Shown here piece by piece: positions 18,270 to 48,753 of a stretch of 64,000 nt of DNA (positions are counted from its first letter, which is position 1; each line of letters starts with the position of its first letter). A model generated the notes under the pieces. That model was not told the origin of the DNA and made no database searches. It saw only the letters and a list, made by a program, of their open reading frames with translations. The DNA is from Sphingomonadales bacterium (lineage in GTDB: Bacteria; Pseudomonadota; Alphaproteobacteria; Sphingomonadales; Sphingomonadaceae). The stretch lies in contig JACXVD010000017.1 in NCBI GenBank assembly GCA_014763545.1, forward strand, positions 1-64,000, in the 5' to 3' direction. Both the position numbers and the translations under genes were made by a program.

Positions 18270-18272
18270 GCG

Positions 18273-19157: not shown

Positions 19158-19161
19158 CCCC

Positions 19162-20187: not shown

Positions 20188-21495
<1,308 letters not shown>

Positions 21496-21503
21496 GAATC
21501 CAT

Positions 21504-21595: not shown

Positions 21596-21609
21596 ACAAG
21601 GAGAACGAC

Positions 21610-22566
21610 ATGCGTATCGCCCTCGCCGGCGCCGGTGCCTTCGGTGAAAAGCACCTCGACGGACTCATGAAGATCGACGGGGTGGAAGTCGCCTCGGTCA
21701 TTTCGCGCCGGGCCGACCAGGCCGCCGAAGTCGCCGCGAAATATGGCGCGGCCCATTCGGGCACCGAATTGTCCGAAGCGCTGGCGCGCGACGATGTCGA
21801 TGCGGTGATCCTGTGCACCCCCACCCAGATGCACGCCGAACAGGCGATCGCCTGCATGGAGGCGGGCAAGCATGTGCAGGTCGAAATCCCGCTGTCCGAC
21901 AGCTGGGGCGATGCGCAGGCGGTGGCCGACAAGGCCAGGGAAACCGGCCTCACCTGCATGGTCGGCCATACCCGCCGGTTCAATCCCAGCCACCAATATG
22001 TCCATAACCGGATCGTGGCGGGCGAATTCGCCATCCAGCAGATGGACGTCGAAACCTATTTCTTCCGCCGCAAGAACATGAACGCCAAGGGCGAACCGCG
22101 CAGCTGGACCGACCATCTGCTGTGGCACCACGCGGCGCACACGATCGACCTGTTCGCCTACCAGGCGGGCAGGATCGTGAAGGCCAATGCGATCCAGGGG
22201 CCGAAGCATCCCGATCTGGGCATCGCGATGGACATGTCGATCCAGCTGAAGGCGGAAAGCGGCGCGATTTGTACCCTGTCGCTGAGCTTCAACAACGACG
22301 GGCCGCTGGGCACTTTCTTCCGCTATATCGGCGACACCGCGACCTATATCGCGCGCTACGACGATCTGGTGACGGGCAAGGAAGAACCGATCGACCTGTC
22401 GGGCGTCGCCGTATCGAACAACGGGATCGAACTGCAGGACCGCGAATTCGTGGCCGCGATCCGCGAAGGGCGCGCACCCAACAGCTCGGTCGGCCAGGTG
22501 CTCGATTGCTATCGCGTCATCGGCGAACTGGCCGCCAGCCTCGAGGAACAGGACGGCTGGAGCTGA
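21610..22566 (+). CDS. ligC: 4-carboxy-2-hydroxymuconate-6-semialdehyde dehydrogenase
   Basis: NAD(P)-dependent enzyme of the Gfo/Idh/MocA family that oxidises the hemiacetal of the LigAB product to 2-pyrone-4,6-dicarboxylate. The N-terminus MRIALAGAGAFGEKHLDGL holds the Rossmann glycines. A central CTPTQMHAEQAIACMEAGKHVQVEIP block and a C-terminal sheet domain with WHHAAHTIDLF and GTFFRYIGDT follow. ATG 21610 has AAGGAG nine bases upstream; the frame open to 21547 lies in repeat sequence. The 318 residues match LigC (about 315). Confidence 0.95.
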   Translation: MRIALAGAGAFGEKHLDGLMKIDGVEVASVISRRADQAAEVAAKYGAAHSGTELSEALARDDVDAVILCTPTQMHAEQAIACMEAGKHVQVEIPLSDSWGDAQAVADKARETGLTCMVGHTRRFNPSHQYVHNRIVAGEFAIQQMDVETYFFRRKNMNAKGEPRSWTDHLLWHHAAHTIDLFAYQAGRIVKANAIQGPKHPDLGIAMDMSIQLKAESGAICTLSLSFNNDGPLGTFFRYIGDTATYIARYDDLVTGKEEPIDLSGVAVSNNGIELQDREFVAAIREGRAPNSSVGQVLDCYRVIGELAASLEEQDGWS

Positions 22567-22571
22567 GCACG

Positions 22572-23567
22572 ATGCAACGTATGCTGGCCGGGCGCGCGGT
22601 CAATCCCATCGGGCTGGGCTGCATGAATGTCGCCTGGGCCTATGCCGCACCGCCCCCGCGCGAGGACGCGGTGCGGCTGTTCCGCCGTGCGCTCGACCTC
22701 GGCTACGATCATTTCGACACGGCCAATATCTATGGCAAGGGCGTCTCGGAAGAAATCCTGGGCGAAGCGATCATGGACCGGCGCGGCGAGTTCCTGCTCG
22801 CCAGCAAGACCGGGATCGTGGTCGACGGGCCACGGCGCGGGATCGACTGTTCGCCCGGCGCGATCGCCGAAAGCCTCGACGCCAGCCTCAAGCGGCTGCG
22901 GACCGATCATATCGACCTGTTCTACATGCATCGCTTCGACCCCAAAGTGCCGATTGCCGACAGCGTGGGCGCGATGGTGCGGGCGATCGAGGCGGGCAAG
23001 ATCGGCGCCTATGGCGTGTCCGAATGGTCGAGCGCGCATATCCGCGAGGCGCATGCCGTCCACCCGATGGCGGCGGTGCAGCCCGAATATTCGCTGTGGA
23101 CGCGCAATGTCGAACTGGGCGTGCTGGAAACCACCCGCGAACTGGGCATCGCGCTGGTCGCCTTCAGCCCGGTGGCGCGCGGCGTGCTGGGCGGCGAGAT
23201 GAAAGACCCGCAGGCTCTCGGCGAAAACGACCTGCGCCGCAGCCACCCGCGGTTCCAGCCCGATACATGGCCGCACAACCTGGCCCTGGTCGAGCGGTTC
23301 GACGCGATCGCCGCGCGCGAGGGGATCGCCCCGGCGCAGCTGGCGCTGGCCTGGGTGCTGTCGCGCGGCGAGCATGTGCATGCGATCCCCGGGACGACCA
23401 GCTTCGCCCATCTCGAACAGAATATCGCCGCACCGCAGGTCGCGGTCGCGCCAGCGGTGCTCGACGAGGTCGGCGCGCTGATCAACCAGCAGACCGTCAC
23501 CGGCCACCGCTATCCCGAGGTGATGCGCGCGACCATCGACACCGAGGATTTCGCCCCGGCCGACTAA
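22572..23567 (+). CDS. Aldo/keto reductase
   Basis: NADPH-type TIM-barrel oxidoreductase of 331 residues. Catalytic tetrad segments are visible: FDTANIYGKG (Asp and Tyr), LASKTGI (Lys) and FYMHRFD (His). The cofactor-binding C-terminal motif is AIPGTTSFAHLEQN. It starts 5 bases after ligC ends, so it is the last gene of the lig operon. Its role is not part of the known pathway. It could reduce reactive semialdehydes or aromatic aldehydes to less toxic alcohols. It converges with the dienelactone-hydrolase-like gene with a 4-base gap. Confidence 0.88.
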   Translation: MQRMLAGRAVNPIGLGCMNVAWAYAAPPPREDAVRLFRRALDLGYDHFDTANIYGKGVSEEILGEAIMDRRGEFLLASKTGIVVDGPRRGIDCSPGAIAESLDASLKRLRTDHIDLFYMHRFDPKVPIADSVGAMVRAIEAGKIGAYGVSEWSSAHIREAHAVHPMAAVQPEYSLWTRNVELGVLETTRELGIALVAFSPVARGVLGGEMKDPQALGENDLRRSHPRFQPDTWPHNLALVERFDAIAAREGIAPAQLALAWVLSRGEHVHAIPGTTSFAHLEQNIAAPQVAVAPAVLDEVGALINQQTVTGHRYPEVMRATIDTEDFAPAD

Positions 23568-23571
23568 GCGC

Positions 23572-24456
23572 TCAGCCTTTCAGCGTGCGGCCGTAGAGGT
23601 CGAGCAACCGCGCCCAGGCACGTTCGGCCTCCGGCTTGTCGTAGCTCGGCGAATCCAGCACGCACCAGCCGTGGTCGGCGTTGTAGACCTCGATCTCTGC
23701 CTTTACGCCGACCGCGTCGGCGGCCTCGCGCAGCACATCCTTGTCGCCCGGCGCCTTGGCATCGTCGTTCTTGGCGATGCAGATCAGATATTGCGCCTTC
23801 GCCTCGCCGAAGGTCGTGTGCGGGCTCATCGCGCCCTGGCGCACCAGCCCGCCGCCATGGAAACTGCCGACCGCGCGGACATGCGGCACATCGGCCACCG
23901 CCGTGAACATCGCGAAGCTGCCGGTCATGCAATAGCCCTGCGACCCCATCCCGCGGGTTTCATCGACGCTGTCCTGCTGCGCCAGCCAGCCGGTCGCGGC
24001 CCCGGCATCGCGCAGGATCGCCTCGGGCACCAGTTTCTCGCGCCAGGGGCCGACTTTCTGGAAGCCCGAATTTGCCATGAAATCGGCAAAATCCTTGAAC
24101 TGTTCGCCCTTCACATCGCGGTAGTAGGGATTGGCGAGGAACACCGCATAGCCCTCGCTCGCCAGCCGCCGCGCCATCGACCGCTTGGCTTCGCGCACGC
24201 CGGCAATGTCGGGCCAGAACAGCACCGCCGGGTGCTTGCCCGCTGCCGGGCGGACGAAATAGCCGTCCATCGTGCCGTCAGGCGTAGCGAAGCTGACCTC
24301 GCCTTCTTCCAGCATGTTCTCGCTCGCTTCGCCCTTTTGCGGGGTGGTGCAGGCGGCGATCGCCCCGGCTGCCCCCAGGACCGCGAACTGCCGACGATTG
24401 ACCCCGGCCCCGCGCGCGCTTTGCGCGAACCGCGCCATGTCCTGTTCGTCACACAT
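23572..24456 (-). CDS. Dienelactone hydrolase family protein, Tat-exported lipoprotein type
   Basis: Alpha/beta hydrolase of the dienelactone hydrolase family. The N-terminus has a twin-arginine motif NRRQFAVLG (about residues 21-29) followed by a hydrophobic stretch and a lipobox-like IAAC, so it is probably exported folded and lipid-anchored. The nucleophile is Cys in GSQGYCMTGSFA, with Asp in AKNDD and His in ADHGW completing a Cys-Asp-His triad. GGAGAG precedes ATG 24456. It follows the LigD-like dehydrogenase gene by 65 bases on the same strand and may be co-transcribed. The substrate is unknown. Confidence 0.88.
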   Translation of the reverse strand: MCDEQDMARFAQSARGAGVNRRQFAVLGAAGAIAACTTPQKGEASENMLEEGEVSFATPDGTMDGYFVRPAAGKHPAVLFWPDIAGVREAKRSMARRLASEGYAVFLANPYYRDVKGEQFKDFADFMANSGFQKVGPWREKLVPEAILRDAGAATGWLAQQDSVDETRGMGSQGYCMTGSFAMFTAVADVPHVRAVGSFHGGGLVRQGAMSPHTTFGEAKAQYLICIAKNDDAKAPGDKDVLREAADAVGVKAEIEVYNADHGWCVLDSPSYDKPEAERAWARLLDLYGRTLKG

Positions 24457-25467: not shown

Positions 25468-25497
25468 CTAACGATTGTTAGTGTTGCATACAAAATC
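25468..25497. promoter_or_regulatory. Operator-like palindrome in a divergent promoter
   Basis: CTAAC-GATT-GTTAG (25468-25481) is a perfect inverted repeat and contains TAACGATTGTTA, which fits the consensus TAACGNNYGTTA seen at two more promoters in the window. Read on the minus strand, bases 25497-25473 also give ATTTTGTATG-N4-ACTAACAATC, the same composite found before the TonB receptor gene. It lies 19 bases from the dehydrogenase start and 35 from the NTF2-like start, so one regulator could control both directions. Confidence 0.7.
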
Positions 25498-27894: not shown

Positions 27895-27950
27895 TAACGG
27901 GCGTTATCTAAAGCTTGCCAATTCGAATTTTGTATGTCTTACTAACAATC
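27895..27950. promoter_or_regulatory. Operator-like elements upstream of the TonB receptor gene
   Basis: TAACGGGCGTTA (27895-27906) fits the consensus TAACGNNYGTTA. Further down, 27927-27950 reads ATTTTGTATG-N4-ACTAACAATC, the composite that also precedes the LigD-like gene in the same orientation relative to the coding strand. An 8-base palindrome ATTCGAAT (27921-27928) lies between them. The block ends 40 bases before the receptor start. The shared words suggest common control with the neighbouring catabolic genes. Confidence 0.7.
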
Positions 27951-30452: not shown

Positions 30453-32027
30453 ATGGAATTGCGGTTGCCGCCACGCGTTTCGCCGGAAGATTTCCAACGT
30501 GCCAGCGACGCCTTCGCCGGGGTCGTCGGCAAGGATTGGGTGCTGGTCGAGGATGAGGATCGCGACGCCTATTCCGATGCCTATGCCCCCGGCCCCAAGG
30601 AACAATGGCCGCCTTCGGGCGCGGTCGCGCCGGGCAGCGTCGAGGAAGTGCAGGCGCTGGTCCGCCTGGCCAACGAACACCGCATCCCGCTGTGGCCGGT
30701 CAGTCGCGGCAAGAACCTGGGCTATGGCACCGCCGCGCCGCGCCTGCCCGGTGCGATGGTGCTCGACCTCGGGCGGCTGAACAAGGTGCTCGATCTCGAT
30801 CCCAAGCTGGCCTACGCGGTGGTCGAACCGGGCGTTTCCTTCTTCGACCTGTTCGACCATATCGCGCGCGAAAAGGCCCCGCTGTGGATGAGCGTGCCGG
30901 GCAATGGCTGGGGTTCGGTGCTGGGCAATGCGCTGGAACACGGCATCGGCTACACCCCCTATGGCCTCCACGCACGCAACCTGTGCGGGATGGAACTGGT
31001 CACCCCCACCGGCGACCTGGTGCGGACCGGCATGGGCGCGATGGATGGCAACCATGCCTGGCACCTGTTCCCCTTCAGCTTCGGCCCGACCTGGGAACTG
31101 GCGATGACCCAGTCCAGCCTGGGCGTGGTGACCAAGGCGGGGCTGTGGCTGCAACCCGAACCGGAAAGCTCGCTCGAACTCAGCTGGGACATTCCCAAGG
31201 AAGAAGACATCGGCTGGGTGATCGACACGCTCGCCCCGATGAAGATTTCCGGGCTGATCGAACAGAACATCTTCATCCCCAGCTGGCTGGGCAAGGTCGT
31301 GCTGAAGGGCCAGCGCAAGGACTTCTGGGACAAACCCGGCGCGATCCCCGAATGGCGGGTGCAGGAACTGCTCGACCAGTACAAGCTCGGCTACTGGAAG
31401 GTGCAGATCCGGCTGTATGGCGACAAGGCAGTCAACGAAGCCAAGGCCGCGGTGATCAAGGCGGCGATGAAGCGCCACCTTGCCGCCCCGCCCGAAGAGG
31501 TCTGGTGGCACGCAGGCGACAGCCGCAGCGCGGTCGACACCACGATGGGCGTGCCCAGCGCGATCCCGCTGCAGATGGGCGACTGGATCGGCGGTGCGGG
31601 ATCGCACATGGGCTTTTCCCCCGTGGTCCCGGCGACCAGCGAACATGTGCTCGGCCAGCTCAAGCGCAGCCGCAAGATCATCGCCGATCACGATATCGAC
31701 TTCTACGCCAGCTTCACCATCGGCGGGCGGTTCGCGAACAACATCAACATGCTGATGTTCGACCGCACGCAGCAGGCCGAGGTCGACAATACCAAGAAGC
31801 TGTTCGACGCGCTGATCGCCGAAACGGCCAAGGCGGGCTACGGCGAATATCGCACCCACCTGGGCTGGATGGACCCGGTGATGGCGACCTTCGATTTCAA
31901 CGATCATGCGCTGCGCCGGATGAACGAGAAGGTGAAGGACGCGCTCGACCCCAACGGCATCATCGCACCGGGCAAGCAGGGCGTCTGGCCTGCCGCCTAT
32001 CGCGACCTGGCAGGAGCCCGCGCATGA
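30453..32027 (+). CDS. VAO-type FAD phenol oxidase / 4-alkylphenol hydroxylase flavoprotein
   Basis: Flavoprotein of the vanillyl-alcohol oxidase / 4-cresol dehydrogenase / eugenol hydroxylase family, oxidising para-substituted phenols at the benzylic carbon. The PP-loop FAD motif is PVSRGKNLGYG, and the C-terminus GEYRTHLGWMDPVM followed by DPNGIIAPGKQGVWP is strongly VAO-like. The histidine that links FAD covalently in VAO lies in an MHH motif; here the aligned residues read F427-A-N429-N430, and the tyrosine used by 4-cresol dehydrogenase aligns with Phe417 (Tyr418 is next). FAD may thus be non-covalent or differently attached. The downstream cytochrome is the likely electron acceptor. GGGAGGAGGGG precedes ATG 30453. 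Confidence 0.92.
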   Translation: MELRLPPRVSPEDFQRASDAFAGVVGKDWVLVEDEDRDAYSDAYAPGPKEQWPPSGAVAPGSVEEVQALVRLANEHRIPLWPVSRGKNLGYGTAAPRLPGAMVLDLGRLNKVLDLDPKLAYAVVEPGVSFFDLFDHIAREKAPLWMSVPGNGWGSVLGNALEHGIGYTPYGLHARNLCGMELVTPTGDLVRTGMGAMDGNHAWHLFPFSFGPTWELAMTQSSLGVVTKAGLWLQPEPESSLELSWDIPKEEDIGWVIDTLAPMKISGLIEQNIFIPSWLGKVVLKGQRKDFWDKPGAIPEWRVQELLDQYKLGYWKVQIRLYGDKAVNEAKAAVIKAAMKRHLAAPPEEVWWHAGDSRSAVDTTMGVPSAIPLQMGDWIGGAGSHMGFSPVVPATSEHVLGQLKRSRKIIADHDIDFYASFTIGGRFANNINMLMFDRTQQAEVDNTKKLFDALIAETAKAGYGEYRTHLGWMDPVMATFDFNDHALRRMNEKVKDALDPNGIIAPGKQGVWPAAYRDLAGARA

Positions 32028-32494
32028 ACGCCCGGCTGACGATCGCCCCCGCCGCACTCGGCTGCGCGCTGCTGCTGGCTGCCTGCAATTCCGACGTCGG
32101 CAAGGGCGACACCGCCGCGCCGCCCGAAGGTGCCAAGGGCGCTGCGGGCGCAGCGGCAGCCCCGCCGATGGGCCCACCGCCGTATATCACCCGCGACCAG
32201 GCCCCGGCCGGCAACCGGCTGGCGGTCGCACGCGATCCCAAGGCGGTGTTCCAGCATGCCTGCGGCTATTGCCACCTCGAAGCCGGGATGGGCACCAACC
32301 TGCTGGTCAAGCAGCGGATCGCCGCGGGCGCCCCGCCCGAAACCGCGCTGCTCGCCAATCGTGACGATTTGACCGCCGACTACGTCAAGCAGGTGGTGCG
32401 CCAGGGCAAGAACGCGATGCCGCCGCAGACCAGGGTCGACATCACCGATGCCGAACTGGACGAGGTCGCCAAATGGCTGGCGAAGGGCAAGTGA
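32024..32494 (+). CDS. Cytochrome c lipoprotein, partner of the flavoprotein
   Basis: A 156-residue c-type cytochrome with a lipoprotein signal (LLLAACN), an Ala/Pro-rich linker and one haem site, CGYCH, near residue 83. The probable axial Met is in KNAMPPQTR. It overlaps the flavoprotein stop by 4 bp (ATGA), the arrangement seen for the PchC/PchF and eugenol hydroxylase pairs, so it should carry electrons from the reduced flavin to the respiratory chain on the periplasmic face. The flavoprotein itself shows no signal peptide, so its own location is open. Confidence 0.92.
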   Translation: MNARLTIAPAALGCALLLAACNSDVGKGDTAAPPEGAKGAAGAAAAPPMGPPPYITRDQAPAGNRLAVARDPKAVFQHACGYCHLEAGMGTNLLVKQRIAAGAPPETALLANRDDLTADYVKQVVRQGKNAMPPQTRVDITDAELDEVAKWLAKGK

Positions 32495-32892
32495 TGCGCC
32501 TGACCCGTCGCCACGCGCTGACCGCGGGCGCCGCGCTGGGCGCCGCCACCGCCCTGCCGTTGGCCGGTGCCCGCCTCGCCGCGCGCCCGGCGCTGCTGGT
32601 GCACGACAGCCGGCTGGCCGAATCCCCCGCCTTCCTCGCAGCGCATCCGGCGACCCGCCGGTTCGACATCGCGGGCGAGGCGGCGCAGCAGTGGCGCGGG
32701 CTGCGCGGTGACGGCCTTGCCCGGATGGCGCGCGGCCCCGTCTCCGGCCTCACCCGCTGGAGCGACTGGGTGCAGTTGCGCGGCGCGCTGGAGGCGCAGG
32801 GCCTGCGCCTTGCCAGCGAGCGCATCCTGCGGCCGACCGCCGGTTTCAGGCACGATCTGGTGCTGTGGGCGATGCGCCCCCGGCAGGGATGA
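32494..32892 (+). CDS. Small Tat-exported protein of unknown function
   Basis: A 132-residue protein starting at ATG 32494, which shares one base with the cytochrome stop (TGATG). The N-terminus carries a twin-arginine motif (TRRHALTAG) and an alanine-rich hydrophobic stretch, so export by Tat is likely. The mature part shows no cofactor motif that I recognise; residues such as RFDIAGEAAQQWRGL and GLTRWSDWVQLRGALEAQG hint at a small helical domain. Tight coupling suggests it helps assemble, carry or export the flavocytochrome, perhaps hitchhiking the flavoprotein through Tat. Confidence 0.8.
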   Translation: MRLTRRHALTAGAALGAATALPLAGARLAARPALLVHDSRLAESPAFLAAHPATRRFDIAGEAAQQWRGLRGDGLARMARGPVSGLTRWSDWVQLRGALEAQGLRLASERILRPTAGFRHDLVLWAMRPRQG

Positions 32893-32999: not shown

Positions 33000-33764
33000 A
33001 TGGCCGATATCGCGCTCTACCATTGGGAGCCGAATGCCAATTCGGGCAAACCGATGCTGGCGCTCGCCGAAAAAGGCGTGGCGTGGGACAGTCACTACAC
33101 CGACCTGCTCAATTTCGACCAGCACAAGCCGGCCTATCTGGCGATGAACCCGCAAGGGACGATCCCGGTGATGACCCATGGCGACCTGGTGCTGACCGAA
33201 AGCACGGCAATGATGGAATATGTCGACGAAGCCTTCGCCGGGCCCGAACTGATGCCGGCCGATCCGCGCGATCGCTGGCGGGTGCGCTGGTGGATGAAAT
33301 TCATGGACCAGTGGCTCGGCCCCAGCTTCTCGATGATCGGCTGGTCGATGTTCGTCGGCCCCTCGGTGCGCCAGAAAGACCCCGCCGAACTGGAGGCCGC
33401 GATCGAGCGCATCCCGCTGCCCGAACGCCGCGTGGCCTGGCGCAAGGCGATCAGCGGCAGTTTCAGCCCCGAGGAAATGGCCGAGAGCCGCCGCCGCGTG
33501 GCGCAGGGCGTCGCGCTGCTGGAAGAGGAACTGGGCAAGCGGCCCTATGTCGGGTCGAACCAGTATACGCTGGCCGACATCAACATCTTCAATTCGACCT
33601 ATTCGCTCCCGCTCGGCCAGCCCGACCTCGCCGGGCCGGACAAGACCCCCAACATCATGGCCTGGCTCAAACGCTGTTACGACCGGCCCGCCGTGGCCGA
33701 AGTGTGGGCAATGGGCCGGACCGACCTCGCCAAGCGGGTTTCCGCGATGATGGAGCTGCTGTGA
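33000..33764 (+). CDS. Glutathione S-transferase resembling beta-etherase LigF
   Basis: A 254-residue two-domain GST. The N-terminal thioredoxin-like part reads PNANSGKPMLALAEKGV, then NPQGTIPVMTHGDLVLTESTAMMEYVDEAF; the C-terminal helical part has SMIGWSMFVGP, where SYK-6 LigF has a similar STIGW stretch by memory. LigF-type enzymes cleave beta-aryl ethers with glutathione. The Ser/Asn-rich ANSG motif is at the LigF active-site position. ATG 33000 follows GGAGAGGAA; the frame from 32940 runs through the palindrome and is rejected. It heads a five-gene operon. Confidence 0.88.
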   Translation: MADIALYHWEPNANSGKPMLALAEKGVAWDSHYTDLLNFDQHKPAYLAMNPQGTIPVMTHGDLVLTESTAMMEYVDEAFAGPELMPADPRDRWRVRWWMKFMDQWLGPSFSMIGWSMFVGPSVRQKDPAELEAAIERIPLPERRVAWRKAISGSFSPEEMAESRRRVAQGVALLEEELGKRPYVGSNQYTLADINIFNSTYSLPLGQPDLAGPDKTPNIMAWLKRCYDRPAVAEVWAMGRTDLAKRVSAMMELL

Positions 33765-34549
33765 TGGGTGCGATCCTCTACCACGGGCAGCCCAACGGCC
33801 CCAGCTTCAGCGTGCTCGCCGCGCTGGCCGAAAGCGGGCTGGCCATCGAAACCCGCAGCATCGACCTGCTGGCGGGCGAGCGCCACACGATCCCCGGCCT
33901 TGCCGAACCGCTGGCCCGCGACATGGGGCTGGAGGGCGAAGGCCCGGTGCTGGTCGCCGATGGCGAGGCGATGACCGACGCCGTGTTCCTGGCGCAATAT
34001 TTCGACGAGGCTGCCGGCGGCTGCGGCTTGCAGCCCGCCGATCCCTATGCCCATTGGGAAATGATGATGTGGTGCCGCCAGCTGACCGAACGGCTGGCCC
34101 CGGCGGCAGCCTGCCTCGGCACGCTGGCCCATGCGCAGCCCGCACTGGCGGCGCTGGGGGGCGATGCGTTCGCCGCGCTCGCCGCCAATATCGCCAGCGA
34201 AGATCTGCGCGCGCGGTGGCAGGATCTGCACGATGGCGCGTTCGACACGGCCAAGCTGGCAGACAGCAAGGCCAAGGTCGCCCAATTCGCCCAGCGCACG
34301 GAAGACCGGCTGGCCGACGGGCGCGACTGGCTGATGGGCGATTTTTCCATCGCCGATTTCGAAACATACGGCTGGATGGCCGGGATGCGCGCGCTCGAAC
34401 CGGAAGCCTTCGCAGGCAAGCCGCATCTCACCGCCTGGTTCGCGCGGATCGAGGCGCGTCCGGCCACGCAGGCGGCACTGGCGCATGCCACCGTCGCCGA
34501 CCCGTCCGCCGCCTGGGCCCCCGGCCCCGAAATCAACCGCTGGGGCTGA
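33764..34549 (+). CDS. Divergent GST-like protein
   Basis: A 261-residue protein with weak GST features: ILYHGQPNGPSFSVLAALAESGL at the N-terminus, EAMTDAVFLAQYFDE where the glutathione-binding Glu-Ser pair is normally found, and a helical C-terminus with DWLMGDFSIADFETYGWMAGM. The usual NP-x-G-x-VP cis-proline loop is replaced by a longer Leu/Ala/Arg stretch (GLAEPLARDMGLEGEGPVLV), so glutathione binding may be altered. It overlaps the LigF-like gene by one base. Possibly a partner subunit of a heterodimer, as known for some etherases; unproven. Confidence 0.8.
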   Translation: MGAILYHGQPNGPSFSVLAALAESGLAIETRSIDLLAGERHTIPGLAEPLARDMGLEGEGPVLVADGEAMTDAVFLAQYFDEAAGGCGLQPADPYAHWEMMMWCRQLTERLAPAAACLGTLAHAQPALAALGGDAFAALAANIASEDLRARWQDLHDGAFDTAKLADSKAKVAQFAQRTEDRLADGRDWLMGDFSIADFETYGWMAGMRALEPEAFAGKPHLTAWFARIEARPATQAALAHATVADPSAAWAPGPEINRWG

Positions 34550-34555
34550 ACCGCC

Positions 34556-36136
34556 ATGCGTTCCATCGACTATTTCGACCGCGGGCACGATCGCGACCCG
34601 ACGCGCAGTTGCATCATCGATACCGCGACCGGGCTCGAGCTGACCTTTGCCGAAGTGCGCGAGCTGACCTTCCGCATCGCCGCCGCGCTGCAGAAGAACG
34701 GCTTCGAAAACCAGGACCTGCTGGGGCTTTACGGCCCGAACGACGGGATGCTGCTGGTCGTGATCCTCGCCATGTGGCGCGCCAACGGCAAATGGATCCC
34801 GGTCAACACCCGCAACGAGATCGACGCGAACGCCGCCTATCTCAACTATGTGCGCTGCAAGTGGATGGTCTATCATTCGAGCAAGGCCGAAGAGGTTGCC
34901 CGGCTGCGCAGCCTGTGCCCGGGGCTGACCCATTTCATCTGCCTCGACCGGCCCTGCGACACCGGCGGCACCGCCACCGACCCCTCGCTCGACCAGCTGC
35001 TCGACGGGGTGAGCGCGGCTGACTTCACCGAGGTCGAGATCGACGCTTTCGGCAATCTGTTCGACCTCGTCGGCATCTTCCCCACCGGTGGCACCACCGG
35101 GCCGAGCAAGGGCGCGAATGTCACCAACCTCGGCTGGGGGACGATGATCGAAACCGCCGCCGATGCGATGGGCGGGCGGACCGACCAGCCGGTGGCGCTG
35201 GTTTCCGCGCCGATCACCCATGCCGCCGGGCCGATCGCGCTGTCGACGCTCAGCCTGGGCGCGACGCAGGTCATCCTGCCCGGCTTCGATGCCGAGCGCG
35301 TGCTGCGCTCGATCGAGCAATACCGCATTACCCACATGTACCTGCCGCCGACCGCGCTCTACCAGCTGCTGGCGAGCCCGGAGATCGGCGAGCACGATTA
35401 TTCCAGCCTCAGGATCTTCATCCTCGTCGGCAGCCCGTGCAGCCCGGAAAAGCTGCGGCTGGCGGTGGAAACGTTCGGACCGTGCATGTGCCAGAGCTAT
35501 GGCCAGGTCGAATGCCCGATGATCGTCGCCTGGTTCCCGCCCGAAGATGTCGCCAAATTCGCCTATGAAGCGCCGGAAAAGCTCGCCGCCTGCGGCAAGG
35601 TGACGCGATCGGTGAAGGTCGCGCTGCTCGACGACGACGGCAACGAGGTGCCGCGCGGCGAGGCTGGCGAGATCTGCGCGCGCGGTGCGCTGGTGACCCA
35701 TTCCTATTTCGAAAAGCCCGAAGCCACGGCGGAAATCCGCCAGTTCGGCTGGCACCACACCGGCGATGTCGGCAAGTTCGACGAGGATGGCTACCTCTAC
35801 ATCGTCGATCGCAAGAAGGACATGGTCGTCACCGGCGGCTTCAACGTCTTCACCGCCGAGGTCGAAGCCGCGATCACCGAACTGCCGCAGGTCCGCGAGG
35901 CCGCAGTGTTCGGCATCCCGCACGAGAAATGGGGCGAACAGGTCCACGCGGTCGTCGTCGCCGAGGGGATTTCCGATACCGAGATCATCGCCCACGCCAA
36001 GGCGCGGCTCGGCGGCGTGAAGGCCCCCAAAACAGTTGCATTTCTAGACTCGATTCCACGCACCGCAGCAGGCAAGATGGACAAGAAGAAGCTGCGTACC
36101 CCCTATTGGGGCGAGAATGCGCGGATGGTGAACTGA
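34556..36136 (+). CDS. AMP-forming acyl/aryl-CoA ligase
   Basis: ANL-superfamily ligase that activates a carboxylic acid with ATP and CoA. The phosphate loop PTGGTTGPSKG lies near residue 180, followed by QSYGQVEC, the hinge/adenylate motif GWHHTGDVGKFDEDGYLYIVDRKKDM and the C-terminal lysine segment IPRTAAGKMDKK. At 526 residues it is of normal length. Substrate choice (fatty acid, phenylpropanoate, feruloyl-type) cannot be read from sequence, though the operon suggests an aromatic side-chain acid. It starts 6 bases after the divergent GST gene. Confidence 0.9.
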   Translation: MRSIDYFDRGHDRDPTRSCIIDTATGLELTFAEVRELTFRIAAALQKNGFENQDLLGLYGPNDGMLLVVILAMWRANGKWIPVNTRNEIDANAAYLNYVRCKWMVYHSSKAEEVARLRSLCPGLTHFICLDRPCDTGGTATDPSLDQLLDGVSAADFTEVEIDAFGNLFDLVGIFPTGGTTGPSKGANVTNLGWGTMIETAADAMGGRTDQPVALVSAPITHAAGPIALSTLSLGATQVILPGFDAERVLRSIEQYRITHMYLPPTALYQLLASPEIGEHDYSSLRIFILVGSPCSPEKLRLAVETFGPCMCQSYGQVECPMIVAWFPPEDVAKFAYEAPEKLAACGKVTRSVKVALLDDDGNEVPRGEAGEICARGALVTHSYFEKPEATAEIRQFGWHHTGDVGKFDEDGYLYIVDRKKDMVVTGGFNVFTAEVEAAITELPQVREAAVFGIPHEKWGEQVHAVVVAEGISDTEIIAHAKARLGGVKAPKTVAFLDSIPRTAAGKMDKKKLRTPYWGENARMVN

Positions 36137-36171
36137 AGGGCCGCAGCCGGGCGGCGAGGAGAGGAACGAAT

Positions 36172-38286
36172 ATGCGTCTTGCTTTGGGATTGGTGGCGGC
36201 GCTCGCCCTGCCGCTGGCGGCCTGCAACAAGGGGCCTGCCAGCCCCACCCTCGCGACCGAGGGCGTCACCGATGCGATGATCACCAGCCAGCCGCAGGGC
36301 GAATGGCTGACCTATGGCGGGACGTACGACGAACAGCGCTTCTCGCCGCTGACGCAGGTGAACGACGGCAATGTCGGCGAGTTGGGCCTCGCCTGGAGCC
36401 ACGATCTCGACACCGCGCGCGGGCAGGAAGCGACGCCGCTGATGCATGACGGCGTGCTCTATGTCTCGACCGCGTGGAGCAAGGTGCTGGCCTTCGATGC
36501 GAAGACCGGGGCGCTCAAATGGTCCTACGATCCGCAAGTGCCGCGCGAAACGCTGGTGCGCGCCTGTTGCGATGCGGTGAACCGCGGCGTCGCGCTCTAT
36601 GGCAACAAGCTCTATGTCGGCACGCTCGACGGGCGACTGGTCGCGCTCGACCAGGCCAGCGGCAAGGAAGTGTGGTCGAAAGTCGTGGTCCCCGACCAGG
36701 TCAATTATTCGATCACCGGCGCCCCGCGCATCGCCAAGGGCATGGTGCTGATCGGTTCGGGCGGCGCGGAATACAAGGCGCGCGGCTATCTCGCCGCCTA
36801 TGACGCGCAGACCGGCGAGGAAGTGTGGAAATTCCACACCGTGCCCGGCAATCCCGAAGACGGGTTCGAAAACGACGCGATGAAGAAGGCCGCCGAAACC
36901 TGGACCGGCGAATGGTGGAAGCTGGGCGGCGGCGGCACGGTGTGGGATTCGATCACCTACGATCCCACCACCAACCTCGTGCTGTTCGGCACCGGCAATG
37001 CCGAGCCGTGGAACCCCGCCGTCAGCGGGCGCGAGGGCGACAGCCTCTATACTTCCTCGGTCGTTGCGGTGGATGCCGATACCGGCGAATATCGCTGGCA
37101 TTTCCAGGAAACCCCGGAAGATCGCTGGGATTTCGATTCCGACGCGCAGATCACCATCGCCGACCTCCAGATCGACGGCAAGCAGCGCCACGTGGCCCTG
37201 CACGCGCCGAAGAACGGCTATTTCTACGTGCTCGACGCCAAGACCGGCGCGTTCATCTCCGCTGGCAGCTTCGTGCCGCAGAACTGGACCACCGGAATCG
37301 ACCCCAAGACCGGGCGCCCGACGATCAACCCCGAGGCGCGCTACGAACAGACCGGCAAGCCGTTCATCTCGATGCCCGGCGCGGGCGGCGCGCACAGCTG
37401 GCAGCCGATGAGCTTCAGCCCCAAGACCGGCCTCGTCTATATCCCGGCCAATATCGCCGCCTTCCCCTATATGGCGGCAAAGGACTTCCAGCCGAGCGAC
37501 ATCGGCTTCCAGACCGGGCTCGACGGCGCGGCGGTGGCCATGCCGGCCAACAAGGAAGCCCGCGCCGGCGCGCTGGCGGCGACCACCGGGGCGCTGATCG
37601 CGTGGGATCCGGTGGCGCAAAAGCCCGCCTGGACGGTGCCGCAGACCAGCCCGTGGAACGGCGGCACGCTGGCGACCGCGGGCAATCTGGTGTTCCAGGG
37701 CGACGCGACCGGCAATTTCAACGCCTACAGCGCCGACAGCGGCAAGCAATTGTGGTCCTTCCCGGTGCAGACCGGGGTGATCGCCGCTCCGATGACCTAT
37801 GAGGTGGACGGCGAACAATATGTCGCCATCCTCGTCGGCTGGGGCGGCGTGTGGGACATCGCCACCGGCGTTCTGGCGCACAAGGGCGGCGCGACCAAGA
37901 ACATCAGCCGCCTGCTGGTGTTCAAGCTGGGCGGCACGGCCAAGCTGGCCGAAGCGCCGCGTTCTGCCGACCGCGTGCTCGATCCGCCGCCCTTCACCGG
38001 CACGCCCGAACAGGTCGCCGCGGGCGCCGCCACCTATGGCCGCTATTGCTCGGTCTGCCATGGCGACGCGGCGGTGGCGGGCGGGGTCAACCCGGACCTG
38101 CGGCACTCGCCGGTGCTCGGCAAGGCCGACACGTTCAAGGCGATCGTGATCGACGGGGCGCTGTCGCAGGGCGGCGGCAACGGCATGGTGTCCTTCGCCA
38201 CCGCGATCAAGCCGGAACAGGCCGAGGATGTCCGCCAATATGTGATCAAGCGCGCCAATGAGGACAAGGCGCTGGGCGACAAGTGA
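36172..38286 (+). CDS. PQQ-dependent quinohemoprotein alcohol dehydrogenase, lanthanide-type motif
   Basis: Periplasmic type II alcohol dehydrogenase with an eight-bladed PQQ propeller fused to a C-terminal cytochrome c. Lipoprotein signal LPLAACN; adjacent cysteines Cys132-Cys133 for the PQQ-site disulfide; haem motif CSVCH at 626-630. The catalytic segment is WDFD (319-322): Asp320 plus Asp322 make the Asp-x-Asp pair that in XoxF and PedH-type enzymes marks lanthanide use, where calcium enzymes have Ala, Ser or Thr at the second position. GAGGAGAGG precedes ATG 36172. Substrate inferred to be an aromatic or phenylpropanoid alcohol. Confidence 0.92.
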   Translation: MRLALGLVAALALPLAACNKGPASPTLATEGVTDAMITSQPQGEWLTYGGTYDEQRFSPLTQVNDGNVGELGLAWSHDLDTARGQEATPLMHDGVLYVSTAWSKVLAFDAKTGALKWSYDPQVPRETLVRACCDAVNRGVALYGNKLYVGTLDGRLVALDQASGKEVWSKVVVPDQVNYSITGAPRIAKGMVLIGSGGAEYKARGYLAAYDAQTGEEVWKFHTVPGNPEDGFENDAMKKAAETWTGEWWKLGGGGTVWDSITYDPTTNLVLFGTGNAEPWNPAVSGREGDSLYTSSVVAVDADTGEYRWHFQETPEDRWDFDSDAQITIADLQIDGKQRHVALHAPKNGYFYVLDAKTGAFISAGSFVPQNWTTGIDPKTGRPTINPEARYEQTGKPFISMPGAGGAHSWQPMSFSPKTGLVYIPANIAAFPYMAAKDFQPSDIGFQTGLDGAAVAMPANKEARAGALAATTGALIAWDPVAQKPAWTVPQTSPWNGGTLATAGNLVFQGDATGNFNAYSADSGKQLWSFPVQTGVIAAPMTYEVDGEQYVAILVGWGGVWDIATGVLAHKGGATKNISRLLVFKLGGTAKLAEAPRSADRVLDPPPFTGTPEQVAAGAATYGRYCSVCHGDAAVAGGVNPDLRHSPVLGKADTFKAIVIDGALSQGGGNGMVSFATAIKPEQAEDVRQYVIKRANEDKALGDK

Positions 38287-38299
38287 TCCAATGCAATCG

Positions 38300-38322
38300 G
38301 GCGGCGCCGGGTGGGCGCCGCC
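38300..38322 (+). other. Intercistronic hairpin
   Basis: A perfect 9-bp stem, GGCGGCGCC and GGCGCCGCC, with loop GGGTG, sits between the alcohol and aldehyde dehydrogenase genes and just before the ribosome-binding site GGAAAGGAAG. With no U tract it is more likely an mRNA-stability or processing element than a terminator. Confidence 0.6.
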
Positions 38323-38338
38323 GGGAAAGGAAGCAGCG

Positions 38339-39853
38339 ATGAACGAAGTAACCAGTATCGACCGCACGCAACGCGAATATTCGGCCGCTGTGAAGCAGGC
38401 TCTTGCCCGCGCGCCGCAGCTCTACATCAACGGCGAATGGGTCGATTCATCGGGCGAGGCGACGATCGACGTCGAAGACCCGTCTTCGGGCAAGGTCGTC
38501 GCCAGCATCGTCGAGGCGACCGACAAGGATATCGACCGCGCCGTGGCCGCCGCCCGTGCCGCCTTCGACAGCGGCGTGTGGCGCGAGATGCCGCCGGTCG
38601 CGCGCGAGAAGATCATGCACCGCCTCGCCGACCTGATCGAGGCCCATGCCGACGAACTGGCCGAACTGGAAGCGATCGACGTGGGCAAGCCCAAGGGGAT
38701 GGCCGCCGCAGTCGACGTGCCGGGTGCGGCCAACCACATCCGCTACATGGCGGGCTGGGCCGGCAAGATCAACGGCGAGACGATCGCGCCCTATTCGCTG
38801 CCGGGCGGGATGATGTTCGCCTATACGCTCAAGGAACCGGTCGGCGTCTGCGCGCAGATCGTGCCGTGGAACTTCCCGCTGCTGATGGCCTGCCTCAAGA
38901 TCGGCCCGGCACTCGCAGCGGGCTGCGCCACCATCCTCAAGCCCGCCGAACAGACCAGCCTCACCGCGCTGCGGCTGGCCGACCTGGTGCATGAGGCAGG
39001 CGTGCCGCCGGGCGTGTTCAACCTCGTCACCGGTTATGGCCATACCGGCGGCGACCGGCTGGTGAAGCACCCCGATGTCGACAAGGTGGCCTTCACCGGT
39101 TCGACCGAAATCGGCAAGCTGATCAACCGCAACGCCACCGAAACGCTCAAGCATGTGACGCTCGAACTGGGCGGCAAGAGCCCGGTGGTGGTGATGCCCG
39201 ACGTCAACCCGGCGGAAGCCGGGCCGGGCGTGGCGGGCGCGATCTTCTTCAATTCGGGCCAGGTCTGCGTCGCCGGTTCGCGCCTCTATGCGCACAAGAG
39301 CGTGTTCGACGAGGTCGTCGAAGGCATGGCCGCGACCAAGGATTTCTGGGCCCCGCGCCCCTCGCTCGATCCCGAGGCCCACATGGGCCCGCTGGTCAGC
39401 AAGGAACAGCACGAACGGGTGCTCGGCTATATCGAGGCGGGCAAGCGCGACGGCGCCAGCGTGCTGATGGGCGGCGATGCCCCGGCGAGCGACGGCGGCT
39501 ATTACGTCAACCCGACCATCCTGACCGATGTGAACCCGCAGATGAGCGTAGTGCGCGAGGAAATCTTCGGCCCCGTCGTCGTGGCCCAGCGCTTCGAGGA
39601 TCTCGACGAAGTGGTCCGCGATGCCAACAACACGCAATATGGCCTGGCCGCGGGCGTGTGGACCAAGGATGCCAGCGCCATCCACAAGATCGCCAGCAAG
39701 CTGCAGGCCGGCACCGTCTGGGCCAATTGCCATGCGATGATCGACGTGGCGATCCCCTTCGGCGGCTACAAGGAAAGCGGCATCGGCCGCGAACAGGGCC
39801 GCGAAGGGGTGGAAGCCTATATGCAGACCAAATCGGTCATCATGAAGCTGTGA
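38339..39853 (+). CDS. NAD(P)-dependent aldehyde dehydrogenase
   Basis: Oxidises the aldehyde expected from the upstream alcohol dehydrogenase to an acid. Classic ALDH features are present: PWNFPLLMACLKIGPALAAGC (oxyanion Asn and cofactor loop), the FTGSTEIGKLI nucleotide loop, ELGGKSP with the general-base Glu, NSGQVCVAGSR with the catalytic Cys, and EEIFGPVV. The 504 residues are typical of the phenylacetaldehyde/vanillin/coniferyl-type class, but the class cannot be fixed. ATG 38339 is chosen because AAAGGAAG lies nine bases upstream. It ends the operon with a terminator. Confidence 0.92.
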   Translation: MNEVTSIDRTQREYSAAVKQALARAPQLYINGEWVDSSGEATIDVEDPSSGKVVASIVEATDKDIDRAVAAARAAFDSGVWREMPPVAREKIMHRLADLIEAHADELAELEAIDVGKPKGMAAAVDVPGAANHIRYMAGWAGKINGETIAPYSLPGGMMFAYTLKEPVGVCAQIVPWNFPLLMACLKIGPALAAGCATILKPAEQTSLTALRLADLVHEAGVPPGVFNLVTGYGHTGGDRLVKHPDVDKVAFTGSTEIGKLINRNATETLKHVTLELGGKSPVVVMPDVNPAEAGPGVAGAIFFNSGQVCVAGSRLYAHKSVFDEVVEGMAATKDFWAPRPSLDPEAHMGPLVSKEQHERVLGYIEAGKRDGASVLMGGDAPASDGGYYVNPTILTDVNPQMSVVREEIFGPVVVAQRFEDLDEVVRDANNTQYGLAAGVWTKDASAIHKIASKLQAGTVWANCHAMIDVAIPFGGYKESGIGREQGREGVEAYMQTKSVIMKL

Positions 39854-39869: not shown

Positions 39870-39908
39870 GGCCCGCCGCCGGTTACGTCGGGGCGGGCCT
39901 GTTTATTC
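39870..39908 (+). terminator. Terminator after the aldehyde dehydrogenase gene
   Basis: GGCCCGCC (39870-39877) pairs with GGCGGGCC (39892-39899) across a 14-base loop and is followed by TGTTTATT. It closes the GST-to-aldehyde-dehydrogenase operon. Confidence 0.75.
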
Positions 39909-39920: not shown

Positions 39921-40106
39921 ATGGAGGTTCCCGAGGGTATTTTCGCCATCACCGACCTTGCTCGAGCGGTCGGCGTGAACGAGAAGACTGCTCGTGCTCG
40001 GTTGCGCAAGCACTTTGGCGGTACATTGGCCGATCTCGGGAAGCGGCGTTGGACTTATGGACCTGAGGACCGAGCCAGGATTCTTGCGATAATTTGTGGA
40101 GGCTGA
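39921..40106 (+). CDS. Small putative HTH protein
   Basis: A 61-residue frame beginning ATGGAGGTTCCC. The sequence FAITDLARAVGVNEKTARARLRKHF reads like a helix-turn-helix with a basic recognition helix, and RRWTYGPEDRARI could be a wing or a short helix. Its codon use is less G/C-biased at third positions than the neighbours. No known family is recognised; it might be an excisionase-like or MerR-like fragment, or a genuine small regulator of the downstream amidohydrolase operon. A clear ribosome-binding site is missing (GGGGAAGTACG). Confidence 0.5.
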   Translation: MEVPEGIFAITDLARAVGVNEKTARARLRKHFGGTLADLGKRRWTYGPEDRARILAIICGG

Positions 40107-40141: not shown

Positions 40142-41014
40142 ATGCCCATCGACCTGAACAAGATCCGCGCCATCGACGTGCATGTGCATGCGGAGATTTC
40201 CTGCCACGATCCGGAAGACCCGGTGATGGGCGAATTCTTCGACGCGGCCAGCGCCTACTTCAAGGCCCCGCGCGAACGGCCCAAGATGCCCGAGATCATC
40301 GAACTCTATCGCGAGAGCCAGATCGCCTTCTGCATGTTCACCGTCGATGCCGAGAGCGGCATGGGCGCCAAGCGCGTCTCGAATTACGAAGTGGCCGAAA
40401 TCGCCAACAAGAACGACGATATCTGCATCCCCTTCGCCAGCATCGACCCGCACAAGGGCAAGCTGGGCGCGCGCGAAGCCCGCGATTTGGTCGACAACCA
40501 CGGGGTCAAGGGCTTCAAGTTCCACGGCATCGCGCAGAATGCGCACCCCGCCGACCGGATGGCCTGGCCGATCTACGAGGTGATCAACGAATACAAACTG
40601 CCCGCGATCTTCCACACCGGCCATTCGGGCATGGGCACGGGCATGCGCGGCGGCGGCGGGATGCGGCTGAAATTCGGGCAGCCGATCCTGATCGACGATG
40701 TCGCGGTGGAATTCCCCGACATGAAGATCATCCTCGCCCATCCCAGCTGGCCCTGGGTGGACGAAAGCCTGTCGATGGCGCTGCACAAGGACAATGTGTT
40801 CATCGACCTGTCGGGCTGGAGCCCCAAATATTTCCCCAAGCAGGTGATCACCTACGCCAACACGCAATTGCGCAAGAAAATGCTGTTCGGCAGCGACTTC
40901 CCGCTGATCCATCCCGACAAATGGATCGCCGCCGCACAGGAAGTGGGCTTCCGCGAAGAGGTGATGCCCGGCATCATGAAGGACAATGCCGCGCGGGTGC
41001 TTGGCCTCGCCTGA
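40142..41014 (+). CDS. Amidohydrolase family protein (ACMSD-like)
   Basis: A 290-residue metal-dependent amidohydrolase_2 protein. Metal-site segments are in order: IRAIDVHVHAE (HxH), KGFKFHG, AIFHTGHSG, IILAHPSWPW and FGSDFPL with the catalytic Asp. The family includes decarboxylases, hydratases and lactonases such as LigI, LigJ and LigW; this one is a distinct branch and its reaction is unassigned. A glycine-rich insertion (GMGTGMRGGGGMR) follows the third histidine. It starts an operon of seven genes, and its ATG lacks a strong ribosome-binding site. Confidence 0.87.
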   Translation: MPIDLNKIRAIDVHVHAEISCHDPEDPVMGEFFDAASAYFKAPRERPKMPEIIELYRESQIAFCMFTVDAESGMGAKRVSNYEVAEIANKNDDICIPFASIDPHKGKLGAREARDLVDNHGVKGFKFHGIAQNAHPADRMAWPIYEVINEYKLPAIFHTGHSGMGTGMRGGGGMRLKFGQPILIDDVAVEFPDMKIILAHPSWPWVDESLSMALHKDNVFIDLSGWSPKYFPKQVITYANTQLRKKMLFGSDFPLIHPDKWIAAAQEVGFREEVMPGIMKDNAARVLGLA

Positions 41015-41472: not shown

Positions 41473-42215
41473 TGGACTTCGCGGGCCGCCATGTCGTCGT
41501 CACCGGCGCGTCCACCGGAATCGGCCGGGCAACCGCCGAGCACATCCTGGGAAGCGGCGGCAAGGTCACGCTGATTGCCCGCAGCGCCGACAGGCTGGCG
41601 GAACTGCGCGAGCTGCACGGCGATGCGGCCCATGTCGCCCCTGCCGATGTCGCCGACGCGGAGGGGCTGACCGCTGCGCTCGATGCCGCAGAGGCCTTCG
41701 CGCCGATCGACGGGCTGTTCTGCAACGCCGGGACCGGCGGCAGCTTCGCCCCGCTGGAAGATTACGCGGCGGATGATTTCGACGCGCTGATGGCGGTCAA
41801 CATGCTGGGCGCGCTGCGCGCGGTGCAGCAGGTCTATCCGCGGATGAAAGCCCGGCGGAAGGGTGCGATCCTGATCACCGGCAGCCTGGCCAGCGAACGC
41901 GGGATGGCGATGAACGTCGCCTACGTAATGAGCAAGCACGCCGTGCTCGGCCTCGCGCGGGCGGCGGCGGTGGAGGGTGCGCCGTTCGGCGTGCGTGCCA
42001 ATTGCCTGATCCCCGGCTTCATCGACACGCCGCTGATGGACGGGATACCGCCAGAGCAGCTCGGCCATCTCGCACAGAAAGTCCCGCAATTGCGGCTCGG
42101 CAGCAGCGCGGAAACGGCCGCGGTGGCCGCCTTCCTGCTGTCCGATGCCGCGAGCCATGTGACGGGGCAGAGCTGGGCGGTCGACGGCGGCGTGCTGGGC
42201 ACACTGCGGGTTTGA
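41472..42215 (+). CDS. SDR family oxidoreductase
   Basis: Classical short-chain dehydrogenase of 247 residues: TGASTGIG near residues 11-18, NAG in LFCNAGTGG, a serine in ILITGSLAS, and Tyr151-x-x-x-Lys155 (YVMSK). The C-terminus GQSWAVDGGVLG is typical of the family. It is less like LigD than the dehydrogenase at 24.5 kb and more like general 3-ketoacyl/alcohol dehydrogenases. Its ATG overlaps the previous stop (TGATG). A role in oxidising a side-chain alcohol is inferred from the operon. Confidence 0.88.
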   Translation: MDFAGRHVVVTGASTGIGRATAEHILGSGGKVTLIARSADRLAELRELHGDAAHVAPADVADAEGLTAALDAAEAFAPIDGLFCNAGTGGSFAPLEDYAADDFDALMAVNMLGALRAVQQVYPRMKARRKGAILITGSLASERGMAMNVAYVMSKHAVLGLARAAAVEGAPFGVRANCLIPGFIDTPLMDGIPPEQLGHLAQKVPQLRLGSSAETAAVAAFLLSDAASHVTGQSWAVDGGVLGTLRV

Positions 42216-42228: not shown

Positions 42229-43008
42229 ATGGCGCTCAGATATTACCACGCCGAACCGCTGGCCAATTCGCTCAAGTCGATGATCCCGCTGGTGGAGAAA
42301 GGCCTCGCCTACGAGAGCATCTATGTCGATCTGCACAAGTTCGAACAGCATTCGGACTGGTTCACCGCGATCAATCCCGAAGGGCAGGTCCCCGTGCTCG
42401 ACCATGACGGGACGATCGTCACCCACACCACGGTGATCAACGAATATCTCGAGGATGTCTTTCCCGATGCCCAGCCCGCCAGCGGCCCGCTGCGCCCGCG
42501 CGATCCGGCCGGCGCGGCGCGGATGCGGTACTGGAACAAATTCGTCGACGAACATGTGATGAATTACGTCTCGATGCACGGCTGGCACCGGCTGGTGCGG
42601 GTGATCGCCAGCGCGATCGAGGATGACCGCTTCGAAGAACTGATGAGCCATGTGCCGCTGCCCGACCAGCGCCGCAAATGGATGACCGCGCGCAGCGGGT
42701 TCGAACAGAAGGATCTCGACCACGCGACCGGCAAGATCACCTATGCGCTGGACAAGATCGAGGCGCATCTGGGCGAGAATGCCTGGCTCGCAGGGGACAG
42801 CTACGGCCTCGCCGACATCAATTTCTATGCCCATTGCGGGCTGATGGTCGACCGCATGTTCCCCGATCTCAGGGTCAACGAAACGCGGCCCAACATCGCG
42901 GCCTGGCGCGACGCGATCGGCGATCGCCCCGCGGTGAAACAGGCGCTGGCGAGCGAGGATCGCACCCAGCCGGGCCTGCGGACATGGAGCGGCGACGGAC
43001 GCGAATAG
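42229..43008 (+). CDS. Glutathione S-transferase resembling beta-etherase LigF
   Basis: A 259-residue GST that reads very like SYK-6 LigF from memory: PLANSLKSMIPLVEKGL, then YVDLHKFEQHSDWF, INPEGQVPVLDHDG and the NEYLEDVFP helix. The C-terminal domain shares HVPLPDQRRKWMTARSGF. LigF cleaves beta-aryl ether bonds of alpha-keto dimers, attaching glutathione. The ANS motif at residues 11-13 matches the LigF active-site region. GAGGAGAGGGGAACG precedes ATG 42229. With the LigD-like dehydrogenase and LigM in the same window, a beta-O-4 role is credible, though related GSTs do other work. Confidence 0.9.
   Translation: MALRYYHAEPLANSLKSMIPLVEKGLAYESIYVDLHKFEQHSDWFTAINPEGQVPVLDHDGTIVTHTTVINEYLEDVFPDAQPASGPLRPRDPAGAARMRYWNKFVDEHVMNYVSMHGWHRLVRVIASAIEDDRFEELMSHVPLPDQRRKWMTARSGFEQKDLDHATGKITYALDKIEAHLGENAWLAGDSYGLADINFYAHCGLMVDRMFPDLRVNETRPNIAAWRDAIGDRPAVKQALASEDRTQPGLRTWSGDGRE

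Positions 43009-46846: not shown

Positions 46847-48753
<1,907 letters not shown>

Follow-up and report, generated by a model that had tools for sequence, protein, structure and literature searches.

A putative BaeAB-type beta-aryl-ether operon of a sphingomonad with a lanthanide-signature quinohemoprotein dehydrogenase

The 64,000-nucleotide stretch analysed here (the window) is taken from contig JACXVD010000017.1 of a Sphingomonadales bacterium (assembly GCA_014763545.1). It contains five consecutive genes on the + strand, encoding two glutathione S-transferases (GST1 and GST2), an AMP-forming coenzyme A (CoA) ligase, a pyrroloquinoline quinone (PQQ)-dependent alcohol dehydrogenase and an aldehyde dehydrogenase (ALDH). 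This is probably a beta-aryl-ether operon of the BaeAB type, in which the C3 side chain that is freed by the etherase would then be oxidised and activated with CoA, and where the position of the dehydrogenase is occupied by an enzyme of either lanthanide or calcium signature that has been exchanged repeatedly. All five frames are open at the positions given by an earlier reading made from the sequence alone (Table 1), and they are coupled as it had described. The first two genes have one base in common, and gaps of 6, 35 and 52 bases precede the ligase, dehydrogenase and ALDH genes respectively. Pfam finds GST domains in both GSTs, AMP-binding and AMP-binding_C in the ligase, PQQ and cytochrome c domains in the dehydrogenase and Aldedh in the ALDH. 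No signal peptide is seen in the ALDH.

Etherase genes and the conserved cluster

By sequence GST1 and GST2 are BaeA and BaeB, the two partners of a beta(R)-aryl-etherase heterodimer, which are encoded by overlapping genes. BaeA and BaeB have been characterised in Novosphingobium aromaticivorans as Saro_2873 and Saro_2872, and their homologs are recognised by identities >50%, scores >200 bits and a baeA gene located directly upstream of baeB and usually overlapping it (PMC6369299). Against the N. aromaticivorans proteins the window BaeA scores 77.3% identity and 415 bits, and BaeB 65.5% and 345 bits. The baeA gene lies directly 5′ of baeB, sharing the single base 33764 (TGATG). In the N. aromaticivorans etherase the BaeA subunit relies on Asn14 and Ser15, whereas BaeB keeps the serine (Ser14) but lacks the Asn (PMC6369299). 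The same arrangement is found here, with N14-S15 in GST1 and P13-S14 in GST2, where the Asn is replaced by Pro. It is general among the homologs; the A-N-S triplet is present in 78 of 78 BaeA sequences, and in 67 of 67 BaeB sequences the Asn is absent, with Pro or Ala instead. The best solved relative of both GSTs is LigF of Sphingobium SYK-6 (4xt0), which is likewise reported as nearest to BaeA and BaeB (PMC6369299). Identity of either GST with LigF, a homodimeric beta(S)-etherase, was rejected because both are far closer to BaeA and BaeB. GST1 is 77% identical to N. aromaticivorans BaeA vs 37% to the GST in its LigF2 position, and for GST2 the corresponding values with BaeB are 66 and 28%. 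The LigF-type enzyme of the window is GST3 (Table 1).

BaeAB converts beta(R)-MPHPV and glutathione into GS-HPV and guaiacol, and the orthologs of N. aromaticivorans, PP1Y and S. xenophagum are active in this reaction (PMC6369299). MPHPV is an alpha-keto dimer with a free gamma-alcohol, on which BaeAB has a kcat of 2.9 per s and a Km of 20 uM (PMC6369299). Orthology to a characterised etherase supports both the glutathione-dependent cleavage of beta-aryl ethers and the use of the cluster for lignin dimers that the sequence-only reading had suggested. Its remark that it knew of no described pathway with this set of genes is wrong for the GSTs, a pair already described as BaeAB (PMC6369299), and the cluster is present in N. 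aromaticivorans. Sphingobium SYK-6 also employs GSTs (LigF, LigE, LigP and LigG) in the cleavage of alpha-keto beta-O-4 dimers, but there the beta(R) isomer is taken by the homodimeric LigE and LigP, where the window has a heterodimer of the BaeAB type.

One genome of the comparison collection is taken by us to be that of N. aromaticivorans DSM 12444. Its locus runs in the order pinW, pinV, a small open reading frame, baeA, baeB, ligase, PQQ dehydrogenase, ALDH, amidohydrolase, a phosphatase-like gene, a short-chain dehydrogenase and a LigF-type GST, with LigM-like (87% identical to that of the window) and DesC-like genes farther downstream. The order from pinW to the LigF2-like GST (Saro_2876-2865) is the same in the window, and most of the genes are 59-87% identical (Table 1). 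The window differs in having an extra stretch of Zn-dependent alcohol dehydrogenase, MFS and TauD genes before the ligM-like gene, and in a diverged operator sequence. From published tags the cluster extends from Saro_2876 to about Saro_2861 (PMC12997858, PMC6369299, PMC11323797), the tags of unlabelled genes being assigned from their order. A literature search by RS locus tags returned only unrelated matches.

A scan by BaeB alignment gave 80 named loci, nearly all of them from sphingomonads, and baeA is directly 5′ of baeB in 77 of 79. Downstream genes were counted in the 66 loci that extend at least 6.5 kb beyond baeAB. The amidohydrolase is present in 53, the PQQ dehydrogenase in 49, the short-chain dehydrogenase in 40, the ligase in 37, the LigF-type GST in 34 and an ALDH in 32. 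In S. xenophagum, whose BaeAB has been assayed as active, the order is baeA-baeB-ligase-PQQ dehydrogenase-amidohydrolase (locus L117). The search for the same gene order in other genomes, which the earlier reading had proposed, thus finds it in N. aromaticivorans and in part in most of the 80 loci. Behind baeAB the ligase and the PQQ dehydrogenase are found again and again, and not in unrelated operons everywhere. As judged from these comparisons the operon is a conserved cluster of the BaeAB type that has already been described in part.

The dehydrogenase and its exchange

The dehydrogenase aligns with 1kv9 over residues 23-690 of 695 (E 2e-215). It consists of a PQQ propeller (PF01011) and a C-terminal cytochrome c domain (PF13442) with the heme site CSVCH, the domain organisation of a type II quinohemoprotein. 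The likeness to the type II enzymes 1kv9, 1yiq and 1kb0 is nearly full-length and includes the cytochrome c domain, but the window enzyme differs from them in carrying a lipobox (LPLAAC, of lipoprotein type) and in having D-x-D where their metal site has D-x-T. That site reads WDFD, compared with WDFT or WDYT in 1kv9, 1yiq, 1kb0 and 8gy2; WDFD is also found in the PQQ ethanol dehydrogenase 6zcv. D-x-D is the accepted signature of lanthanide enzymes and D-x-A/T/S that of calcium enzymes (PMC11996626, PMC5487730). The calcium-type motif of the characterised type II members is therefore missing from the window enzyme, which has D-x-D together with the conserved Glu and Asn ligands. At the sequence level this confirms the earlier description of a lanthanide-type alcohol dehydrogenase, as a type II quinohemoprotein with a lanthanide signature. 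The DSM 12444 ortholog (Saro_2870) is also of lanthanide type (WDFDSAQQIT).

A tree of the slot dehydrogenases, calculated with the motif columns left out, comprises two clades, one of 22 rows with D-x-D (SH-aLRT 96) and the other of 36 rows with D-x-T (92). The D-x-D clade contains the window enzyme and 21 other slot members with WDFD or WDYD. The loop at the metal-binding Asn is GTGNAEPWN in 22 of 22 members of this clade, and GVGNGSPWN in nearly all of the D-x-T clade. On the tree of BaeA plus BaeB the slot type requires nine changes, at least six of which are forced by starred branches; recombination of baeAB could inflate this count, but not the pattern of pairwise identities described below. 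A single D-x-D clade on the BaeAB tree is rejected (AU p 5e-8). Loci L076 (D-x-T) and L063 (D-x-D) are 97% identical in the ligase, 96% in the amidohydrolase, 97% in GST3, 93% in the ALDH and 93% in BaeA, compared with 55% in the dehydrogenase. In locus pairs of the same type the dehydrogenases are 90-94% identical. These patterns indicate that the dehydrogenase has been repeatedly exchanged as one gene between calcium- and lanthanide-signature forms, with the rest of the operon unchanged. It is this lanthanide-signature enzyme, apparently swapped again and again with a calcium-type version, that is new with respect to the known BaeAB clusters. The position of the ALDH varies as well, and in 11 loci (L063, L065, L067, L070, L073, L076, L078, L079, L082, L083 and L084) it holds another ALDH that is ∼39% identical to that of the window. 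Since the slots are filled by exchanged dehydrogenases and by ALDHs of such low identity, the chemistry from alcohol to acid is probably kept while the genes change.

Pseudomonas putida likewise has a calcium- and a lanthanide-type PQQ dehydrogenase, PedE and PedH, as alternatives with a shared chemistry (PMC5487730). P. putida has both genes and an expression switch, whereas the slot of the BaeAB loci holds a single gene, of the one type in some strains and of the other in their relatives, and its product is a quinohemoprotein. A paralogous PQQ dehydrogenase is encoded upstream of pinW. It has D-x-T in most Novosphingobium loci and D-x-D (WDYDATA) in L067 (from 2731), L107 (from 3) and L116 (from 3754), by its motif an independent calcium/lanthanide change in the same neighbourhood. 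The genome of the window also contains a PQQ dehydrogenase sequence in which the lanthanide motif reads WDFDGVNE and the frame has two stops (G000:C88:59548-61341, L140), apparently a broken PedH/ExaF-like gene.

The gene pqqC was not found in 24 genomes (the window's own and 23 others with the cluster) nor in DSM 12444; as a positive control, the same search gave matches in 18 of 115 Alphaproteobacteria. For pqqE there was no match above the cut-off in the 24 genomes. On these results the dehydrogenase would have to rely on imported PQQ. Import of PQQ is known for Gram-negative bacteria (PMC12124388).

Operon borders and neighbouring genes

Table 1. Features of the operon and its surroundings. 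Identity is that to the N. aromaticivorans DSM 12444 counterpart.
Feature	Position	Strand	Identity (%)	Remarks
PinW/PinV-like VAO flavoprotein and cytochrome c pair	30453-32494	+		upstream of baeAB in 33/74 loci (PMC12997858)
19-base inverted repeat TTGTAAGCATTGCTTACAA = TTGTAAGC-ATT-GCTTACAA	32944-32962	.		putative operator of the operon; related 19-mers before baeA in other loci
baeA (GST1)	33000-33764	+	77	catalytic subunit (a GST) of the beta(R)-etherase heterodimer; 415 bits
baeB (GST2)	33764-34549	+	65.5	partner GST subunit of non-catalytic type; 345 bits
AMP-forming acyl/aryl-CoA ligase	34556-36136	+	83	FadD8-like
Type II quinohemoprotein alcohol dehydrogenase	36172-38286	+	73	
NAD-type ALDH	38339-39853	+	75	StyD/BADH-like
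GC-rich hairpin, probable terminator	39870-39899	+		3′ of the ALDH; stem 39870-39877 / 39892-39899
Amidohydrolase-2 family enzyme	40142-41014	+	86	best-conserved downstream member, 74-93% in relatives
Short-chain dehydrogenase	41475-42215	+	59	conserved in the cluster
LigF-type GST (GST3)	42229-43008	+	75	ortholog of NaLigF2/DesD (Saro_2865) by position (PMC6369299, PMC12997858)

The 19-base palindrome that the sequence-only reading had placed ahead of the operon is present (Table 1). The exact sequence TTGTAAGCATTGCTTACAA occurs once in the 3.07-Mb draft genome, and its chance expectation in the window with up to three mismatches is 0.01. Of 76 other loci, 41 have a related 19-mer of the family TWGTAWGY-N3-RCWWACAA at 36-111 bases before baeA, with a score of at least 14/16 that is reached by 0% of shuffles; the consensus had been tuned on the same sites that it then scored. 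The window palindrome is a diverged copy of this conserved, operator-like 19-mer. More copies (TWGTAWGYNNNRCWWACAA) are found in the window at 25475-25493, 27930-27948 and 47289-47307, where they precede a SnoaL-type gene, a TonB receptor gene and the LigM-like demethylase gene respectively. Their positions suggest a candidate regulon shared by these genes.

At the other end the earlier reading had the operon close in a terminator. The hairpin itself stands, with a folding energy of −28.6 kcal/mol and a z of −3.5, but its T tract is weak and it was missed by a simple scan for terminators. Between the hairpin and the amidohydrolase gene lies a 61-codon open frame (39921-40106) that, judged by eye, resembles a small DNA-binding protein. 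Another small open frame (32497-32892) has a twin-arginine-like N-terminus and gave no match in Pfam; its position between pinV and baeA is kept in many loci (37-50% identity). A eugenol-type pathway, based upon the VAO flavoprotein at 30453 with the cytochrome, alcohol dehydrogenase and ALDH, was set aside; its flavocytochrome has the position and the family of PinWV, and many loci lack it.

The AlphaFold model of the amidohydrolase (pLDDT 78) matches 3irs with Z 24, and aromatic-acid decarboxylases and LigW with Z 20. These matches fix the superfamily and not the reaction, and a role as C-C hydrolase or beta-keto acid decarboxylase was set aside. A gallate/protocatechuate-type module occupies 15091-24456, comprising PrpF, an RraA-like aldolase, a LysR regulator, an amidohydrolase, a LigB dioxygenase, a LigC-like dehydrogenase and a dienelactone hydrolase. 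In view of this module the window appears to be a lignin-aromatics island.

Side-chain pathway and its alternatives

In the pathway that we propose, glutathione-dependent cleavage of the beta(R)-O-4 bond by BaeA and BaeB would turn alpha-keto lignin dimers such as MPHPV into guaiacol and GS-HPV, and another GST would remove the glutathione from GS-HPV. The lipid-anchored quinohemoprotein, with imported PQQ as cofactor and a lanthanide as the metal in the D-x-D clade, would then form the aldehyde from the gamma-alcohol, whether of an HPV-type ketone or of a related lignin alcohol. The ALDH would convert the aldehyde to the acid, and the ligase would make its CoA thioester for the removal of C2. 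Side-chain oxidation and CoA activation are the likely role of the three enzymes; the metal dependence and substrate of the dehydrogenase and the order of the pathway are predictions. The ALDH ortholog Saro_2869 oxidises DC-L (PMC11323797). In SYK-6 HPV is oxidised by HpvZ, followed by ALDHs, VceA and VceB (PMC11837543). N. aromaticivorans is without VceA and VceB homologs (PMC11837543), and gamma-oxidation with CoA activation by the operon would fit that gap.

Several observations weigh against this pathway. N. aromaticivorans derivatives cannot grow on HPV without HpvY (PMC11837543); under those conditions the dehydrogenase of the operon is thus no substitute for HpvY, and its candidate role as sole HPV oxidase is weakened by the HpvY deletion phenotype. 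An enzyme that requires a lanthanide, and is left without PQQ, would show no activity in such conditions. Saro_2870 extracts, assayed with PQQ on DC-A, are absent from the active ones in the main text of the report, which mentions addition of neither lanthanide nor calcium (PMC11323797). Given the D-x-D site and no lanthanide named, this negative is not conclusive; missing cytochrome maturation in Escherichia coli is another possible cause of the inactivity. A sizeable share of BaeAB loci lack the ligase and ALDH, and a periplasmic dehydrogenase followed by a cytoplasmic ALDH needs transport in between.

The same enzymes could be arranged in other ways. Were gamma-oxidation to come first, the PQQ dehydrogenase would act in the periplasm on the intact dimer, the ALDH and ligase would lead to its CoA thioester, and BaeAB would cleave the activated dimer. 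The lipobox points to an exported dehydrogenase that meets substrates before uptake, and the ligase and GST genes are contiguous. We consider this order quite improbable, however, because BaeAB cleaves MPHPV with its gamma-alcohol free, making prior oxidation needless (PMC6369299), and some BaeAB loci have no ligase. Oxidation after cleavage is the simpler order for an etherase that accepts such a dimer. Less improbable, though still on the doubtful side, is that the ligase, the dehydrogenase and the ALDH serve aromatic side-chain alcohols in general (coniferyl, dihydroconiferyl, DC-A), as a module that is co-regulated with baeAB and stands outside the ether pathway. The oxidation of DC-L, a beta-5 dimer aldehyde, by Saro_2869 (PMC11323797) is consistent with this, as is the adjoining pinVW (beta-beta dimers) in 33 of 74 loci, the cluster serving several dimer types. 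Pointing the other way are the conserved position directly behind baeAB and the lack of DC-A activity for Saro_2870 in the main text of PMC11323797, where no lanthanide is stated.

A route of the isoprene type, in which one GST (IsoI) adds glutathione, alcohol dehydrogenase, ALDH and CoA steps follow and a second GST (IsoJ) removes it, uses a similar set of enzyme classes. We give it almost no credence and have rejected it, since the GST pair is orthologous to BaeAB. The catalytic Asn is missing from GST2 and from all its homologs, GST2 corresponds to one subunit of the characterised heterodimer (PMC6369299), and a ligase is found here rather than a CoA transferase. The metal site might also be read differently, the second Asp being neutral variation in an enzyme that uses calcium like other type II quinohemoproteins. 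In its favour, some D-x-D PQQ enzymes (m-GDH) have been discussed as promiscuous in their metal (PMC11996626). We nevertheless think a calcium enzyme unlikely, as D-x-D marks the characterised lanthanide enzymes XoxF and PedH (PMC11996626, PMC5487730), and in the slot clade it is invariant (22 of 22) and goes with a different loop close by.

Operons of the BaeAB type are a widespread means by which bacteria break the commonest bond of lignin, and the Novosphingobium enzymes for the freed side chain are described as still undiscovered (PMC11837543). Tentatively, a step of lignin-dimer catabolism may be controlled by lanthanides and imported PQQ, with lanthanide- and calcium-requiring quinohemoproteins as alternatives that were swapped singly at least six times in an otherwise fixed BaeAB operon. 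If this is true, a lack of lanthanum or cerium and PQQ would account in part for the apparent inactivity of Saro_2870, and perhaps for the bottleneck that N. aromaticivorans has at HPV in laboratory media. A dehydrogenase dependent on a rare-earth ion, and on a vitamin-like cofactor not made by the cell, would go unnoticed in ordinary media and recombinant assays. The precise exchange of calcium-type and lanthanide-type genes within one operon also constitutes a natural experiment on the selection of metal choice.

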